In this document: positions 4,641 to 12,597 of the stretch, one piece after another | How positions within the stretch are numbered: the first letter of the stretch is position 1 | Layout: each line of letters begins with the position of its first letter | NCBI GenBank assembly: GCA_003212515.1 | Contig: QCPL01000001.1 | Coordinates: 62,001 to 126,000 of the forward strand | Reading direction: 5' to 3' | DNA: 64,000 nt | Source: Prochlorococcus sp. AG-436-M02 | Lineage (GTDB): Bacteria > Cyanobacteriota > Cyanobacteriia > PCC-6307 > Cyanobiaceae | Notes under the pieces: model-generated | What the model was told of the DNA's origin: nothing | Database searches by the model: none | What the model saw: the letters and a program-made list of their open reading frames with translations, nothing else | Made by a program: the position numbers and the translations under genes

Positions 4641-5555
4641 ATTGTTGAGGTAATTATGTCAACAGGCCTTCAAGGTCAAAGTTTAGTTAGCCATTTATCT
4701 CAGACTGGTAATTACCGAATACGAGCACTTACTAGGAATCCTTTCTCTAAAACAGATATTAAATTAGCTAAATTGCAAAATGTCGAAGTCCTTCAGGCAG
4801 ACTTGTTAGAAAAATCTTCGCTTGAGAATTCATTCAGAGATGCTCATGTGATATTTGGAATATTACTCCAACAACTTCTTGGAAGATTTTCAGAGGAAGC
4901 ATGCTTCGTAAGTATGAAATAGCACAAGGTAGAAAGTATGTTAATGCAGTTAAAACAATCCGTACTAAAGGAAATCTTAATCACTTCATCTTTAGCTCAG
5001 TATGCAAACCTAAAGACCCACTTTCTTCTAATCCAGAGCCAGGCCACTTCTCAATCAAATGGGATATTGAAGAACATTTTATCAATTCAGACCTTATACC
5101 TTTAACAATCTTTTTAAGACCTGCAAGTTATTTTGAGAATTTTTACAGTCGTTTGACCGGTGTAGTATTTCAAAAGTGTTTTGCCTGGGATTATTCATCC
5201 TCATTTTCAATGGAAAACAATTGTAGTAGATGATGTGGGCCTCTGGATTAAGGCAATTAGTGCTACAGAAAAGATTCTTAGTGAAGCTATAAACATTGCT
5301 AGAGAAGAGTTTGCTTGATATCTGATGGCTGAAATAATTAAAGATTCATTATGGGAGGAATATTCAAATGTAAAATATTCTATGATTCATAGAACTCTAA
5401 TAAGATTTATTGAGCATGATATTGCAATTATGCCTAGTTGGATTGAGAGAACAGGATATGGAGCAAGCTTAACTAAATTGAAGCTACTTGCAAATGATAT
5501 TGGCATTCAACTTACTCTTTTTCCTAAATGGATTGTTAACAAAAAAACTGATTAA
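4641..5555 (+). pseudogene. Degenerate NmrA-like NAD(P)-binding protein
   Basis: TGLQGQSLVSHLSQTGNYRIRALTRNP...VEVLQADLLEKSSLENSF, then continuing homology-like segments in other frames (GNLNHFIFSSVCKPKD..., VDDVGLWIKAIS...), broken by frameshifts/stops. Confidence 0.65.
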
Positions 5556-6360: not shown

Positions 6361-6418
6361 GCGGATGGGGTGGGATTCGAACCCACGGAGGCTCGCACAT
6401 CGTTGATTTCAAGACTAT
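6361..6418 (-). pseudogene. 3'-half tRNA remnant (Ser-type, with variable arm, T-arm and acceptor 3' strand)
   Basis: Reverse complement CTTGAAATCAACGATGTGCGAGCCTCCGTGGGTTCGAATCCCACCCCATCCGC has a perfect T-arm GTGGG-TTCGAAT-CCCAC, but no matching 5' acceptor/D-arm lies upstream. Confidence 0.65.
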
Positions 6419-6610
6419 AGATGTTGTAGTGATAGCAATTGATCATAGGATTCTTTTGAAGTAAAAAGAATGAGTGATGACCGATTTGAAAAAGTGATTT
6501 TTTGTCGTAAATTTCTTAATTTTTAACTTATCTTGTTAATTTTTTAGCCTGCTTATTATTTGAAATTTGGTTATATTTAATCAAATATACTCTTCATCAC
6601 TGCTATAGAG

Positions 6611-6697
6611 CGGAGAGTGGGGGATTCGAACCCCCGAGGGACTTGCATCCCTGCTGGTTTTCAAGACCAGAGCCATAAACCACTCGACCAACTCTCC
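6611..6697 (-). tRNA. tRNA-Ser (anticodon UGA)
   Basis: Reverse complement GGAGAGT...CTGGT-CTTGAAA-ACCAG...GGGGG-TTCGAAT-CCCCC-ACTCTCC-G: full cloverleaf with long variable arm; CCA not encoded. Confidence 0.95.
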
Positions 6698-7306
6698 ACT
6701 TCTGATATTACAGGTTTGGTTCAGCAAACTTCAAGCAATTACTTGAAAGTTCGGATTTTGGCGTTAACCTCATTTTTAACTGCGGGTGCAATTGGTAAGG
6801 GCAATCGGTCTACAACTAAACCGCCAAAAATTCTGCTTGGTACTGACTGTGCTTCTTTATAGAACTTCCCGGTTGACGAGTATCGCTGTTCATCTAGAGG
6901 TTGCATGGTTAGTAACAAAGATCGGTTCTCCAATAGGAAGGGTATAAAAGGAAACACGGTTTCTGGTGCACCTTCCCGAAACGTGCACAGGTGGATGAAC
7001 AAGTTATCGAGGGTTGCGCAAATTTTTAAAACTTCCACTGAGGAGAAAGGTTAGTAGGATAAATTGATCCGACAAGGATATATAAGATACAAGAGCAAAC
7101 AGCTAAGTTGTTGAAACAATGGAAAGTTGAATGCAATAGAAGGAATTAAAATTGTGAATTTCTATTCCAAATAATTCACTAAAACAGGAGAGATCCTGAA
7201 AAAAGAAGTTTAGCTTTAGAACTGCTTTTCTAGAATTAACTTTCGAGAGGTTACTTGTCTTAAGATCGAAGAATGTTTAGTATGATAATGATTCCTCTTT
7301 TATAAG

Positions 7307-8395
7307 ATGGGTCTACATATTTTAAAAAAACTCATATTAATAGGTGTAGTTCTTCCAGGATCTATTCAGGATGTTTTTGCATATGAGGAAGAAGCTTATA
7401 TTGCTTTGAAAGCAAATAATAATTACTACAAGGAAATTAATTTAAATAGCATTCACACAAATAATTCATATGCTTTCCTCAAAGAATACTCTAAGAATGA
7501 AAATCATAATAAACATATTGTTAAGGTAGAGAATAGCTATGCCTTGAGCCCTAATCTAAATAGATTAAATACCATAGATTCTAAGCTTTTATCAATTGAC
7601 CAAGAAGATAATCCTTACGATTTCTTAAAACAATTATCTACAAATCAGTCAATTAAAGATACTAATTCCATTGCAAAGGGCAATGATTTAAAACCAAAAG
7701 TATCAGATAAAAATTATCTAGTTAAGTCTCATGGTATAAAAAAAATAAGTAAGAATAATAGGAATAATTTTTATATAGCAGCCAAAGGAGGAGCGATAGT
7801 GCCAGCTAATTTAAGAGTTGAGAATCAAGCTGAAATGTGGTGGTTTGGTCAACTTTTTGATTTAGATGCAGACTTGAAAGCAGGAAAAACATATGGATTG
7901 TCAATAGGTAAGAAATTAAATAGATGGAGACTGGAAGGATCAATAACTAAAGGGGAAATTGCTTTACCGGAAACAATCAATGCTTCTGGCTATTTTGGTT
8001 ATATAGCAACAGAAATCCCCAAAAAAACTAATTTAAAGGTTAATTCATATATGTTAAATCTGTTTAGGGATATCAAGTTTAATAGTACCAATAAGGTCTA
8101 TCCCTATTTCGGAGTTGGGGCTGGAATAAATGATATAAAACTAGATCCATTGGAAATTAATCTAGCTGGTGGTAATTATAATTATCCTAGATTATCAAAA
8201 TTATTATTTACATATAATTTAAAAGGTGGCATTAATTATGAACTTACTAAAAGATACTCGATGTTTACTGAGGCTTCCTTCAACAGAATAAATTCATTCG
8301 ATTTAGGAAGACCACAAAGTGGTACTCCAGACTATTTAAGAATAGATCCTTTAAAATATGTAAATCTAATGACTGGAATTAGATATGATTTTTAG
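7307..8395 (+). CDS. Predicted outer-membrane beta-barrel protein with long low-complexity N-terminal extension
   Basis: Signal-like N-terminus; C-terminal half FYIAAKGGAIVP...YGLSIGKKL-WRLEGSIT...VYPYFGVGAGIN...FTYNLKGGINYEL...VNLMTGIRYDF ends with terminal Phe, as in OmpA/OMP_b-brl barrels. Confidence 0.7.
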   Translation: MGLHILKKLILIGVVLPGSIQDVFAYEEEAYIALKANNNYYKEINLNSIHTNNSYAFLKEYSKNENHNKHIVKVENSYALSPNLNRLNTIDSKLLSIDQEDNPYDFLKQLSTNQSIKDTNSIAKGNDLKPKVSDKNYLVKSHGIKKISKNNRNNFYIAAKGGAIVPANLRVENQAEMWWFGQLFDLDADLKAGKTYGLSIGKKLNRWRLEGSITKGEIALPETINASGYFGYIATEIPKKTNLKVNSYMLNLFRDIKFNSTNKVYPYFGVGAGINDIKLDPLEINLAGGNYNYPRLSKLLFTYNLKGGINYELTKRYSMFTEASFNRINSFDLGRPQSGTPDYLRIDPLKYVNLMTGIRYDF

Positions 8396-8488
8396 CAAAT
8401 TAGATAAAATTATTTGAGTATTTATTGTTCTAAGGTTAGATAATAGAATTCCAAGATTATACTTAGAGCCAATCCTTCTAGGACAAAT

Positions 8489-8668
8489 CTAGATATCCGT
8501 TCTCTTATATTTAGTAGCATTTCCATTATGGAAAGTTCCTCGGATAACAATTGTATCTTTAACTATTTCTAGGCTGGCCTTATAACCACGAAAACGAAGG
8601 TCTTTGTTTGTTACGTCAATTACTCTTGGCTCTTCCTCTGCTGAGAATCCGATAGCTCTTGGAGCTGG
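8489..8668 (-). pseudogene. Coding remnant, possibly the N-terminal part of a tyrosine recombinase/integrase
   Basis: Reading frame PAPRAIGFSAEEEPRVIDVTNKDLRFRGYKASLEIVKDTIVIRGTFHNGNATKYKRTDI*; no start codon, stop immediately upstream; 'LEIVKDTIVIRGTF' resembles integrase arm-binding N-termini. Confidence 0.35.
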
Positions 8669-8709
8669 TCTTCAGGAGTAGAGCTGCTTTGAGAATGTCG
8701 ATGGTTTAG

Positions 8710-8760
8710 TTGACCGCTTTTGACCACTGTCGGTAAAATGACCCAAGGTTGACCACTTTT
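8710..8760. repeat. Cluster of four (T/A)TGACC motifs at 10/18/11-bp spacing
   Basis: TTGACCGCTTTTGACCACTGTCGGTAAAATGACCCAAGGTTGACCACTTTT read directly. Confidence 0.7.
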
Positions 8761-8890
8761 TTATAAAACCATATAAAAAATTACTTGTAAACTGTTGAAG
8801 TTGAGAATCTTATAAACCTAGTTATATCTTGATTTTGATAGCTATATCGGAGTTTCTGGGCGTTTTCTAAAATTCTTTTTGAAGTTCATC

Positions 8891-8935
8891 GGTAGTTTTC
8901 AAGACCAGAGCCATCAACCACTCGACCACTCCTCT
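8891..8935 (-). pseudogene. 5'-half tRNA-Ser(UGA) remnant
   Basis: 8895-8928 matches 6657-6690 of the intact tRNA-Ser at 33/34 positions (D-arm, anticodon loop); 3' half missing. Confidence 0.85.
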
Positions 8936-9439
8936 AAACTGGACAGTGCTGTAACTGCCAAGTCCGTAATAGCAACTCCCTTGCAGCAACTATTTAATTT
9001 ATGCCTCTGAGTTTTTATACTCTGACCCCCATCTTGAGATACTGGTGCTATAGACCTTGGAGAAATCAAATAGATTTAAGAAGTTTTCCGAAAATATTTT
9101 TATTATTGTTATTAGAAAAAAATAGAAAATTTCTATAGATTTGAAGTGAAGAAGCAAGGTTTTGTAAGCTTAAATTTATTCTGCTCCATCGCAGCTTATT
9201 GATCTCGCTCACTGCAGCAGTATCATTTTTTATCTAAAGAGCCAAGAGAAATTTCAGATTTTAAAAAGCAAGCTTTTAAGTTCTCTTCACATATCGTACA
9301 GCCGCTTCGTCTTTTTAAGTTGGATTCAGAAGGGGGGTGCTTTTGGTGATGTCTTCACAACTATTTTGCATCTAATATGATAGGGTCTTAACGATTTTCA
9401 AGATAAATTACCTGCTTTTATTTATTTAAAACAAAGCTC

Positions 9440-10186
9440 ATGACTTCTACTGCACCCAATGAAAATATTAATGATGAGGTAAAAGAAAAGATTTCTTGCA
9501 AATTAGTCTCCGAAATAATACGTGAACGTATCCAGTCTGATGGTGCGAGATTTCATGCAAATGACAATATTTCAGATTACATTCGCCCAGGGGAGTTAGA
9601 GACTCTTGAGAAAGAGGTTGCTACTCGAGTAAGAGATTTACTTAAAACCTTACTGATCGATATCGAGAATGATCACAATACTCAAGAAACAGCTGAAAGA
9701 GTTTCAAGAATGTATATAAATGAGGTTTTTAAAGGTAGATTCTATCAACAACCAAAAGTCACAAGCTTCCCTAATGATAAAAATTTAGATGAAATATATA
9801 CGGTTGGCCCAATCACTGTTCGATCAGCCTGCTCCCACCATTTGGTTCCAATATTAGGAGAATGTTGGATTGGCATTAAACCGGGAGAAAAGGTTATTGG
9901 ACTTTCGAAGTTTGCAAGGGTAGCTGATTGGGTCTTTTCTAGACCACATATTCAGGAAGAAGCGGTGATGATCCTTGCGGATGAAATTGAACGTCTATGC
10001 GAACCTAAAGGACTAGGCATTCTTATAAAAGCACAACATTATTGTATGAAATGGCGAGGAGTTAAAGAACCTGATACTAGTATGATCAACTCTGTTGTTA
10101 GAGGAGATTTTCGCCATGATGCAAGTCTGAAACAGGAGTTTTTCGAACTTGTTAAACAACAGTCCAATCCAGCAAAGAATTATTAG
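9440..10186 (+). CDS. folE: GTP cyclohydrolase I
   Basis: TVGPITVRSACSHHLVPILGECWIGIKPGEKVIGLSKFARVADWVFSRPHIQEE. Confidence 0.95.
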   Translation: MTSTAPNENINDEVKEKISCKLVSEIIRERIQSDGARFHANDNISDYIRPGELETLEKEVATRVRDLLKTLLIDIENDHNTQETAERVSRMYINEVFKGRFYQQPKVTSFPNDKNLDEIYTVGPITVRSACSHHLVPILGECWIGIKPGEKVIGLSKFARVADWVFSRPHIQEEAVMILADEIERLCEPKGLGILIKAQHYCMKWRGVKEPDTSMINSVVRGDFRHDASLKQEFFELVKQQSNPAKNY

Positions 10187-10287
10187 AATTACTATTTTCC
10201 TTTAGCATTGAAAAGTCTTTTGCCAATATTGACTTTTTATGATTTATTTATATGTTAAATAAATTATAAATAATAAACGAAAACCCT

Positions 10288-11310
10288 TTAACTTTTTTCT
10301 GTTTCATAGAAAATACATTCATTAAGTTGATCGTTCAACTTTTTTTGGTTAATATTTTTACCAATTAAAACAACTTTGTTTTCTTTTTTACGATGTTTCT
10401 GAGTGTCATCCATTGTAAATCGCTTGCCTGATAAATGAAAGATATGAGTCAGCTCACTTTCTTCAAACCAAAGTAATCCTTTTGCTCTGTAGATAGTATC
10501 AGGCAATTGATTATCCAAGAAATTCTGGAATTTCCTTAATGAGAAAGGTAATTTAGATTTAAAAGAAAATGATGTATATCCTTCTATTGAAGAGCCTTCG
10601 TGACCATGCTCATGCTCATGCTCATGCTCATGCTCATGCTCATGGTCATGGTCATGAGAAGGTTGATTTTTTGCTATTAAATCTGATTGGAATAACCCAA
10701 CACTTAATAAAAGAGGCAAAGGAGCTTCTCCTCTAACAGTTCTTAAGATCCTTGGATTATTTTTGATTCCTGAAATTATTAATTCTATAGAAGATAATTT
10801 TTCTTTAGTAACTAAATCACATTTATTGATTAAGATAATATCTCCATAGATTATTTGAGATCTTGCTATTTGACTGAAGAGAGTATCATCATTGAAGTTT
10901 TCTGCATCAACTAATGTAATAATAGAATCTAATCTTAACTGTTCTCTAGCACTATTAATAGTCATTGCTACTGGTAAGGGATCAGCTAAACCAGTGGTTT
11001 CTACAATAAGGTACTCAATATCTTTATTCTTGTCTAAAATAGTTTGGATGGCTTCTAGTAATTCTCCATTAATAGTGCAACATATACATCCATTAGTAAG
11101 TTCAACTATATCATCTTCTGTTTTTACTATTAAGTCATTATCTATACCTATTTCACCAAATTCATTAACTAGAACAGCTGATTTCAAACCCTCTTGATTT
11201 GTTAGAATATGATTTAAAAGGGTTGTCTTTCCTGCTCCTAGAAATCCTGTGAGAATAGTTACAGGTATTTCTCTCTGATTCTTAACTGAATTACTTTGTG
11301 ATTTTTTCAT
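10288..11310 (-). CDS. CobW/COG0523-family GTPase (metallochaperone-like)
   Basis: VTILTGFLGAGKTTLLNHIL; GCICCTI; His-rich HDHDHEHEHEHEHEHEHEHGHEG insert. Confidence 0.93.
   Translation of the reverse strand: MKKSQSNSVKNQREIPVTILTGFLGAGKTTLLNHILTNQEGLKSAVLVNEFGEIGIDNDLIVKTEDDIVELTNGCICCTINGELLEAIQTILDKNKDIEYLIVETTGLADPLPVAMTINSAREQLRLDSIITLVDAENFNDDTLFSQIARSQIIYGDIILINKCDLVTKEKLSSIELIISGIKNNPRILRTVRGEAPLPLLLSVGLFQSDLIAKNQPSHDHDHEHEHEHEHEHEHGHEGSSIEGYTSFSFKSKLPFSLRKFQNFLDNQLPDTIYRAKGLLWFEESELTHIFHLSGKRFTMDDTQKHRKKENKVVLIGKNINQKKLNDQLNECIFYETEKS
10605..10657. repeat. In-frame hexanucleotide tandem repeat (CATGCT)6 plus CATGGT units, encoding (EH)n/(DH)n
   Basis: Read directly inside the CobW ORF. 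Confidence 0.95.
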
Positions 11311-11811
11311 GGAATTTCTAAAAAAAATTAGTAAGTTAAATTTAATATCAAAAGTATTTAGAAGATTAGATACTCTATGTTACTGCTTTCAAAATTGATT
11401 GTTAAATCCTCCCATGCCTCTTTGGCAATTCTTAATTTCATGATTTTTTCACCTAGTTGAAAAAGATACCTCATTGCTATTGTAATGGAAAAGTTTCTTG
11501 AATGTTTTACCTTTAAGCATTGACGAATTTTGACCTCTAATAAAAAATATAATTTCTTTTCTATTATAATCAACTGGATTGATATTGGTAAGATTATTTT
11601 TCTTAACTGATTGCTTGACTCTCAAGACTAAGAATAAAATAATCGCTTTGACAATGATCGGATTTCACATTTCTTATAAGAGTTAGATTCAATCTCAAGT
11701 CTTTGGGATCAATGTACTATTAATTTTTGCTTGGGAGTTGTTTATTCATCTGATATTTATCCAGGATTTAACTAGCTTATTATAAATCTCTTTTTCTTGT
11801 CTTAGGAAGCA

Positions 11812-12597
11812 ATGAATCAACTTCGATCGCAAATTTACAAGCAAATAATTAACAAAACCACTGATGATCAAACCTCAATATTCAATAAGGTCTGTGGCTT
11901 TACAATATTCATCTCCATAGTTTTTGCAGTTCTAGTTACTGAAAATTCAATTGATTATCGCTTTGGTGATCAGATTGACTTCTTGGATTGGATTATTGGT
12001 GGTTTGTTTTGTATTGAGTATCTCTTTCGTTTATGGGTTGCTCCACTTGAAGGTATATATGGAAAAGGTTGGAAAGGTTACCTTCGCTACATGATCTCTC
12101 CAATGGCAATTATTGACTTCATAGCAATAATCCCTTCTTTTATTGGAGTTAGAACTGAATTGAAGATTTTGAGAATTATTCGTCTTTTGAGAATATTAAA
12201 AATTGGAAGAAATGAAAAATTTAAGAAAAGTTTATTTCATTTCAATTATGCGTTCTCATCAAAGAGCCAAGAGCTACAAATCTCCACTTTCTATACGGTT
12301 TTAGTTTTACTAATAAGTAGTACTTTTATGTATCTTGCAGAATCATCAATCCAACCGGAATTATTAGGATCAATTCCAAGGTGCCTTTGGTGGTCAATTA
12401 CGACAGTTAGTGCTGTTGGCTATGGTGATTCAATCCCAGTCACAGCAGCTGGAAAAACTATTGCATCTATAACTTCTTTAATGGGAATTGGAGCCATCGC
12501 AATTCCTACAGGTATACTTGCATCCGGTTTTAGCGAATCCATTGCAATACAAAATAGGAATCTTAAATTAGCAATTAAGAATGCAGACAATCCTTGA
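11812..12597 (+). CDS. Voltage-gated potassium channel-like ion transport protein
   Basis: S4-like LRIIRLLRILKIGRN and pore WWSITTVSAVGYGDSIPVTAAGK (K+ selectivity filter VGYGD). Confidence 0.9.
   Translation: MNQLRSQIYKQIINKTTDDQTSIFNKVCGFTIFISIVFAVLVTENSIDYRFGDQIDFLDWIIGGLFCIEYLFRLWVAPLEGIYGKGWKGYLRYMISPMAIIDFIAIIPSFIGVRTELKILRIIRLLRILKIGRNEKFKKSLFHFNYAFSSKSQELQISTFYTVLVLLISSTFMYLAESSIQPELLGSIPRCLWWSITTVSAVGYGDSIPVTAAGKTIASITSLMGIGAIAIPTGILASGFSESIAIQNRNLKLAIKNADNP

Follow-up and report, generated by a model that had tools for sequence, protein, structure and literature searches.

In the 64,000-nt stretch of Prochlorococcus sp. AG-436-M02 analysed here (hereafter the window: GCA_003212515.1, contig QCPL01000001.1, positions 62,001-126,000 of the forward strand; all coordinates are positions within it), the gene for the serine transfer RNA with anticodon UGA, tRNA-Ser(UGA), is found as two displaced halves, and the 2.5-kb insert that lies between them holds a complete tRNA-Ser(UGA) gene of a different type (Table 1). 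The arrangement as a whole is best, and with considerable confidence, explained by a tyrosine-recombinase element that would have split the native gene at its anticodon loop and that carries a complete substitute. The features on which this explanation builds can be read from the sequences of the window and of related genomes: the split itself, empty-site alleles, conserved element ends, a module comprising the whole tRNA, and the recombinase and primase genes of a complete relative.

Table 1. Features of the tRNA-Ser(UGA) locus and of the element inserted in it (window coordinates)
Feature	Position	Strand	Basis or remark
Displaced native tRNA-Ser(UGA) 3' half, attR side	6361..6413	-	Starts with core CTTGAAA at 6407-6413
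Inserted element, 2,490 bp counting one core copy	6407..8896	-	Bounded by 7-bp core repeats
Conserved spacer and right end (...TCTATAGT ahead of core)	6414..6609	-	Homologous in other genomes
Intact element-borne tRNA-Ser(UGA)	6610..6697	-	ARAGORN and genome search; sole UGA copy found in genome
Putative promoter of the element's tRNA (TTGAAG, 16 nt, TGTAAT)	6707..6734	-	Proposed from reading of the sequence
99-aa open reading frame	6742..7038	-	tblastn 45% in G006, where stops interrupt
Cargo gene, 362 aa	7307..8395	+	Signal peptide-like start, outer-membrane beta-barrel-like C-terminal half
Tyrosine-recombinase remnant	8501..8629	-	Residues 30-72 of the 402-aa G005 enzyme, 70% identical
Element left end (ACTACCGATGAACTTCAAAAAG...)	8800..8896	-	Conserved in G005, G006
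Displaced native tRNA-Ser(UGA) 5' half, attL side	8897..8935	-	Ends with core CTTGAAA at 8897-8903

The native halves and the carried tRNA gene

The halves were delimited by alignment on the anticodon loop, which contains the 7-bp core CTTGAAA, and the split falls at this core in all copies examined, bar point changes in the eroded ones. The 5' half was first recognised through a 34-nt repeat, 33 of whose positions are identical between 6657-6690, within the intact tRNA, and 8895-8928. When 8850-8980 was used as a query against the whole genome, the match to the intact tRNA had an E value of 6.4e-10, and a chance origin of the repeat was therefore rejected; the half in fact extends to 8935. 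It is 97% identical to the 5' halves of native-type tRNAs in genomes G002, G003 and G011, each of which has one single intact tRNA-Ser(UGA), of the native type, and the homology continues into the upstream flank. The 3' half matches the intact tRNA of the same three relatives at 87-89% (E 1e-16 to 5e-18) and a native-type 3' half at 91% over 53 nt, whereas its match to the window's own intact tRNA is weaker (83% over 29 nt, E 0.008). A tree of recG places the genome of the window with G011, G004, G012 and G006, and G003 as their sister, so that the native type of the halves is the type expected for this genome. These comparisons identify the two remnants as pieces of one native tRNA-Ser(UGA) at its ancestral locus. 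A preliminary description of this DNA had reported the intact minus-strand tRNA-Ser, the copy of its 5' half and a 3' remnant that differed in variable-arm and T-arm sequence, and all of these observations hold; the last is accounted for by the native type of the 3' half, and the suggestion that the 3' remnant might record an older or different insertion gives way to that of two halves flanking a single insert.

The intact tRNA is the only one called by ARAGORN in the window. It differs in type from the halves (in acceptor stem, variable arm and T arm), and it sits within the insert with its own upstream and downstream flanks, 197-220 bp from the right end. A search of the draft genome found no other intact tRNA-Ser(UGA), the remaining tRNA-Ser match being GCU. 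UCA codons require tRNA-Ser(UGA) under standard wobble rules. The element's tRNA appears to have taken over in this genome, and the cell would seem to depend on the invader's copy, which would have to be expressed: the stretch proposed as its promoter also precedes the intact tRNA, in conserved form, in G005 and G006, and it was not recovered by a consensus scan. When the native halves were rejoined in silico, ARAGORN recognised a tRNA-Ser(UGA) in G005, G006 and G312, a tRNA of undetermined type only in the window, and no tRNA in G200 and G168; the rejoined native tRNA of the window is predicted to be defective. Excision would therefore not restore the tRNA in the last three genomes, and in their lineages the element's copy is probably locked in.

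The element, its relatives and its empty sites

The layout with both halves is present in at least eight other Prochlorococcus genomes, which belong to two genus-level groups. G005 (Prochlorococcus sp. AG-436-C13) and G006 show the order 5' half, insert, whole tRNA, approximately 220 bp, 3' half; in the second group, G312, G200 and G168 retain both halves, while the 3' half is eroded in G233, G154 and G260. A query consisting of the spacer alone, run against 400 genomes of the family, gave convincing matches in eight genomes, drawn from two genera; the spacer of the window was too diverged to be matched in this way and was recovered with the G005 query. The left end, the right end, the flanks of the carried tRNA and the spacer (197-220 bp in six genomes) recur in G005, G006, G312, G200 and G168, and the two ends co-vary by lineage; conservation of the left end is weaker in G362, G312 and G168, still above shuffles. 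Empty sites provide the complementary comparison. In G139, G120 and G307, which belong to the second group, a single tRNA lies 422-423 and 2,700-2,704 bp from the flanking genes, and in G312 the halves lie 422 bp after one of these genes and 2,704 bp ahead of the other, from which it follows that they occupy the ancestral locus. The rejoined flanks of G312 are 95.9% identical to the empty site of G307, while no empty site exceeds 76% identity to the carried tRNA with its flanks. Single-tRNA alleles, which the preliminary description had proposed to look for, thus exist in relatives, and the halves are not an ancestral arrangement common to all of them.

The same description had placed the element at 6691-8894, with a boundary at the intact tRNA; the insert instead extends from one core copy to the other, with the tRNA inside. 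Joining its ends to each other would give TATAGT-CTTGAAA-ACTACC (or, in the second genus, GCTAGT-CTTGAAA-ACTAG), and the target reads CTAGT-CTTGAAA-ACTAG or CTGGT-CTTGAAA-ACCAG. The resemblance is imperfect and limited to the anticodon stem-loop, with no further tRNA sequence in the ends.

The element of G005, of approximately 9 kb, is the complete relative. Adjoining its left end is a divergent 402-aa tyrosine recombinase that matches a PHROG integrase (E 3.6e-13) and PF00589 (E 8.5e-6, 26.1 bits against a curated cut-off of 27.1), and in which Arg263, Arg352, His353, Arg358, Gly374 and Tyr384 are invariant among seven relatives; Arg263, Arg352 and Tyr384 we take, from general knowledge of the family, to be catalytic. 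The element also encodes a second recombinase open reading frame (192 aa, E 1.1e-25) and a 750-aa PrimPol/PriCT_2/AAA protein, a primase-helicase. The recombinase and the primase were absent from the viral contigs searched, and the recombinase from the phage records searched. Across the family, relatives of the G005 recombinase are found beside tRNA-Ser(UGA), and a few (loci L089, L090 and L094) beside tRNA-Arg(CCU); at L090 a 3' half of tRNA-Arg(CCU) lies some 2.6 kb downstream, an arrangement that may mean that this recombinase family uses either half at another tRNA.

In the window copy, 43 residues are all that is left of the recombinase, in line with the earlier proposal of a mostly decayed integrative element whose only intact cargo is one envelope protein gene: the outer-membrane-type gene is the sole large intact open reading frame, and its product matches Pfam OMP_b-brl with an E value of 2.5e-4, under the curated cut-off. 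The 99-aa frame matches no Pfam family and is probably a decayed gene fragment. The insert is colinear with the element of G006, at 87-89% identity along its full length, and with both ends of the G005 element; the window and G006 copies each retain approximately 430 bp at either end of the latter, and in both the homology breaks at the identical G005 position (L033:4387). Among elements of this type, the outer-membrane-like cargo was found solely in these two genomes, its homologue in G006 being intact and about 80% identical. A paralogue of the cargo gene, 42-44% identical, lies elsewhere in each of them (G000:C44:381-1202 and G006:C38:3875-4837). Between the two copies, dN is 0.097 and dS 0.093 (non-synonymous and synonymous divergence, NG86); strong purifying selection is thus not apparent in the gene, although its reading frame is uninterrupted in each copy. 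The native halves of the two genomes are of different types (tRNA alleles), and the elements are 89% identical, compared with 80.6% for recG and 79-82% for three flanking genes. Because the elements are more alike than the host genes and sit in different target alleles, the recombinase-less form probably moved after the hosts had diverged, with recombinase supplied in trans.

Proposed mechanism and competing explanations

According to the mechanism proposed here, a tyrosine-recombinase element would enter the cell's gene for tRNA-Ser(UGA) at its anticodon loop, with strand exchange in the 7-bp overlap CTTGAAA, on either side of which short inverted arms imitate the anticodon stem. The attachment site of the free element (attP) would have the junction TATAGTCTTGAAAACTACC and, because it bears no half tRNA beyond the stem-loop, the native gene would be broken on both sides and left as two useless halves. 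The element would compensate for this loss with its complete tRNA-Ser(UGA) gene, which has its own flanks and is set about 200 bp in from the right end. The halves would decay later, after which excision would restore no tRNA and the cell would presumably depend on the element's copy.

The closest rival, which we consider unlikely, invokes two nested ordinary insertions: a 2.2-kb left element that restored the 5' half and a right one, reduced to a remnant of approximately 200 bp, that restored the 3' half, the middle tRNA being a chimera of both attP halves. Taken singly, either half is an ordinary signature; insertions of the ordinary 5'-half kind, by related recombinases, adjoin tRNA-Ser(UGA) in G362, G031, G393 and G374, and a 3'-half insertion is known at tRNA-Arg(CCU) in G349. 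Set against this, the identical pair of ends and the 197-220 bp spacer occur in three or more distinct target alleles (window, G005 and G312), a second element decaying independently would not be left each time with the same 200 bp, and the left and right ends vary jointly by lineage. A canonical remnant that ends at the displaced 5' half on one side and at the intact tRNA on the other, accompanied by an unrelated older 3' remnant, as the preliminary description had it, would have the usual island signature of one displaced fragment and an intact tRNA (PMC4383910), but is very improbable: the two remnants share one native type, every copy has element-specific sequence to either side of the carried tRNA, and the element continues past the intact tRNA to its right end; the empty-site comparison contradicts the model. 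Duplication of the tRNA, or its gene conversion, with no mobile element involved, would explain the mere presence of tRNA fragments and nothing more, and can be dismissed in view of the exact anticodon-loop breaks, the conserved ends, the recombinase gene and the exact empty sites.

Four observations weigh against the insertion of a single element with a whole tRNA. G072, and more weakly G010, have the right-end module, and in neither was a 5' half recognised; these two genomes fit the nested insertions equally well, and are the only observations that do. G362, the most similar complete relative, whose recombinase shares 66-69% identity with the G005 enzyme and occupies the same position, and whose left end is related, has the ordinary layout, in which the 5' half alone is displaced and the intact tRNA runs straight into native downstream sequence. 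Two exact patterns of the attP junction of a free circle had no match in viral contigs. Finally, the draft genome of the window is 82.8% complete, which leaves some room for a second tRNA-Ser(UGA). The related recombinase and ordinary layout of G362 lead to the suggestion that the whole-tRNA form probably arose from an ordinary 5'-half form inside one recombinase family. Derivation of the spacer of approximately 200 bp from a native tRNA flank by imprecise excision is not supported; compared with five native flanks, its similarity was not above shuffles.

Other insertions are apparent at the same site. In G374 (L101, reverse-complement positions 1951, 2118 and 10798), upstream of the intact gene there are two distinct 5' halves of tRNA-Ser(UGA), together with a third, shorter match and a related recombinase; this suggests repeated ordinary insertions. 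Judged from their sequences, type IV pilus-like genes adjoin tRNA-Ser(UGA) in three relatives (L036, L037 and L039), and phosphate-transporter-like ABC genes at L038; this site has the look of a gene-gain hot spot. In the window, the block immediately upstream of the displaced 5' half (9440-12597) comprises folE, a His-rich CobW GTPase and an ion-channel gene. Comparison of gene order around the tRNA locus places folE elsewhere in relatives, and the block is an additional insertion beside the locus; a window-specific rearrangement at folE was rejected, with nrdJ retained on one flank and the downstream gene run on the other. At 4656-5555, an apparent NAD-dependent epimerase-like gene is broken up over a number of overlapping frames, either as a pseudogene or through frameshifts in the assembly.

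Relation to known elements and significance

According to reviews, a half tRNA in attP serves to rebuild the target tRNA upon integration (PMC8371274, PMC4383910). Class A islands of the Islander collection, which records a 5' fragment for only 159 of its 3,919 islands (PMC4383910), share with the present element a tyrosine recombinase, a tRNA target cut at a defined sub-site, a 7-bp anticodon-loop core and same-orientation displacement of a fragment. Those islands restore their target and displace one fragment, whereas here both parts of the native gene are displaced and the replacement is a separate, whole tRNA, set some 200 bp inside the right end, instead of a restoring attP fragment; an integrase is encoded by the G005 element and lacking in the window copy. 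Integrases of the archaeal pTN3 type likewise displace the native 5' half and leave a tRNA that needs an element-brought promoter (PMC8371274), but restore the target from a half-tRNA attachment site, where the present element has a complete substitute. At the tRNA-Thr locus of Caldiarchaeum (PMC3293823), a mobile element also drives tRNA gene disruption and locus variation in a population; there, however, one 5' fragment lies 1.8 kb upstream of a restored, intron-bearing tRNA, with neither a second half nor a whole replacement.

Tycheposons, compared by second-hand description (PMC10872708, PMC11389934, PMC10803314), share integration at tRNA genes in Prochlorococcus, a tyrosine recombinase near the tRNA and cargo genes, and on the same description the G005 primase-helicase fits a satellite-like member. 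The length of 4-200 kb given in PMC10872708 would accommodate the G005 element, of about 9 kb, but not the window copy, which differs in its 2.5 kb and its lack of a recombinase. No description of a whole replacement tRNA on such elements was found in the literature, the original tycheposon description lying outside the range searched. As the canonical attP feature is lacking, canonical membership is not claimed: the element is a variant of tRNA-targeting integrative elements, for which tycheposons are the closest framework.

The target tRNA would here be abandoned and replaced whole, unlike the reconstitution from an attP half that reviews describe. If so, this would represent a route by which a mobile element captures an essential RNA gene and by which hosts come to depend on a dead element, and searches that expect one intact tRNA and one fragment would misplace the borders of such elements. 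On balance, and by a narrow margin of belief, a broader picture is favoured, in which an element class destroys a single-copy, presumably essential tRNA gene while bringing a whole one, the host becomes locked, and recombinase-less, tRNA-bearing derivatives with swapped cargo move in trans, foreign copies repeatedly replacing the tRNA across Prochlorococcus lineages. It would provide a concrete path for horizontal tRNA gene replacement in an abundant ocean phototroph.
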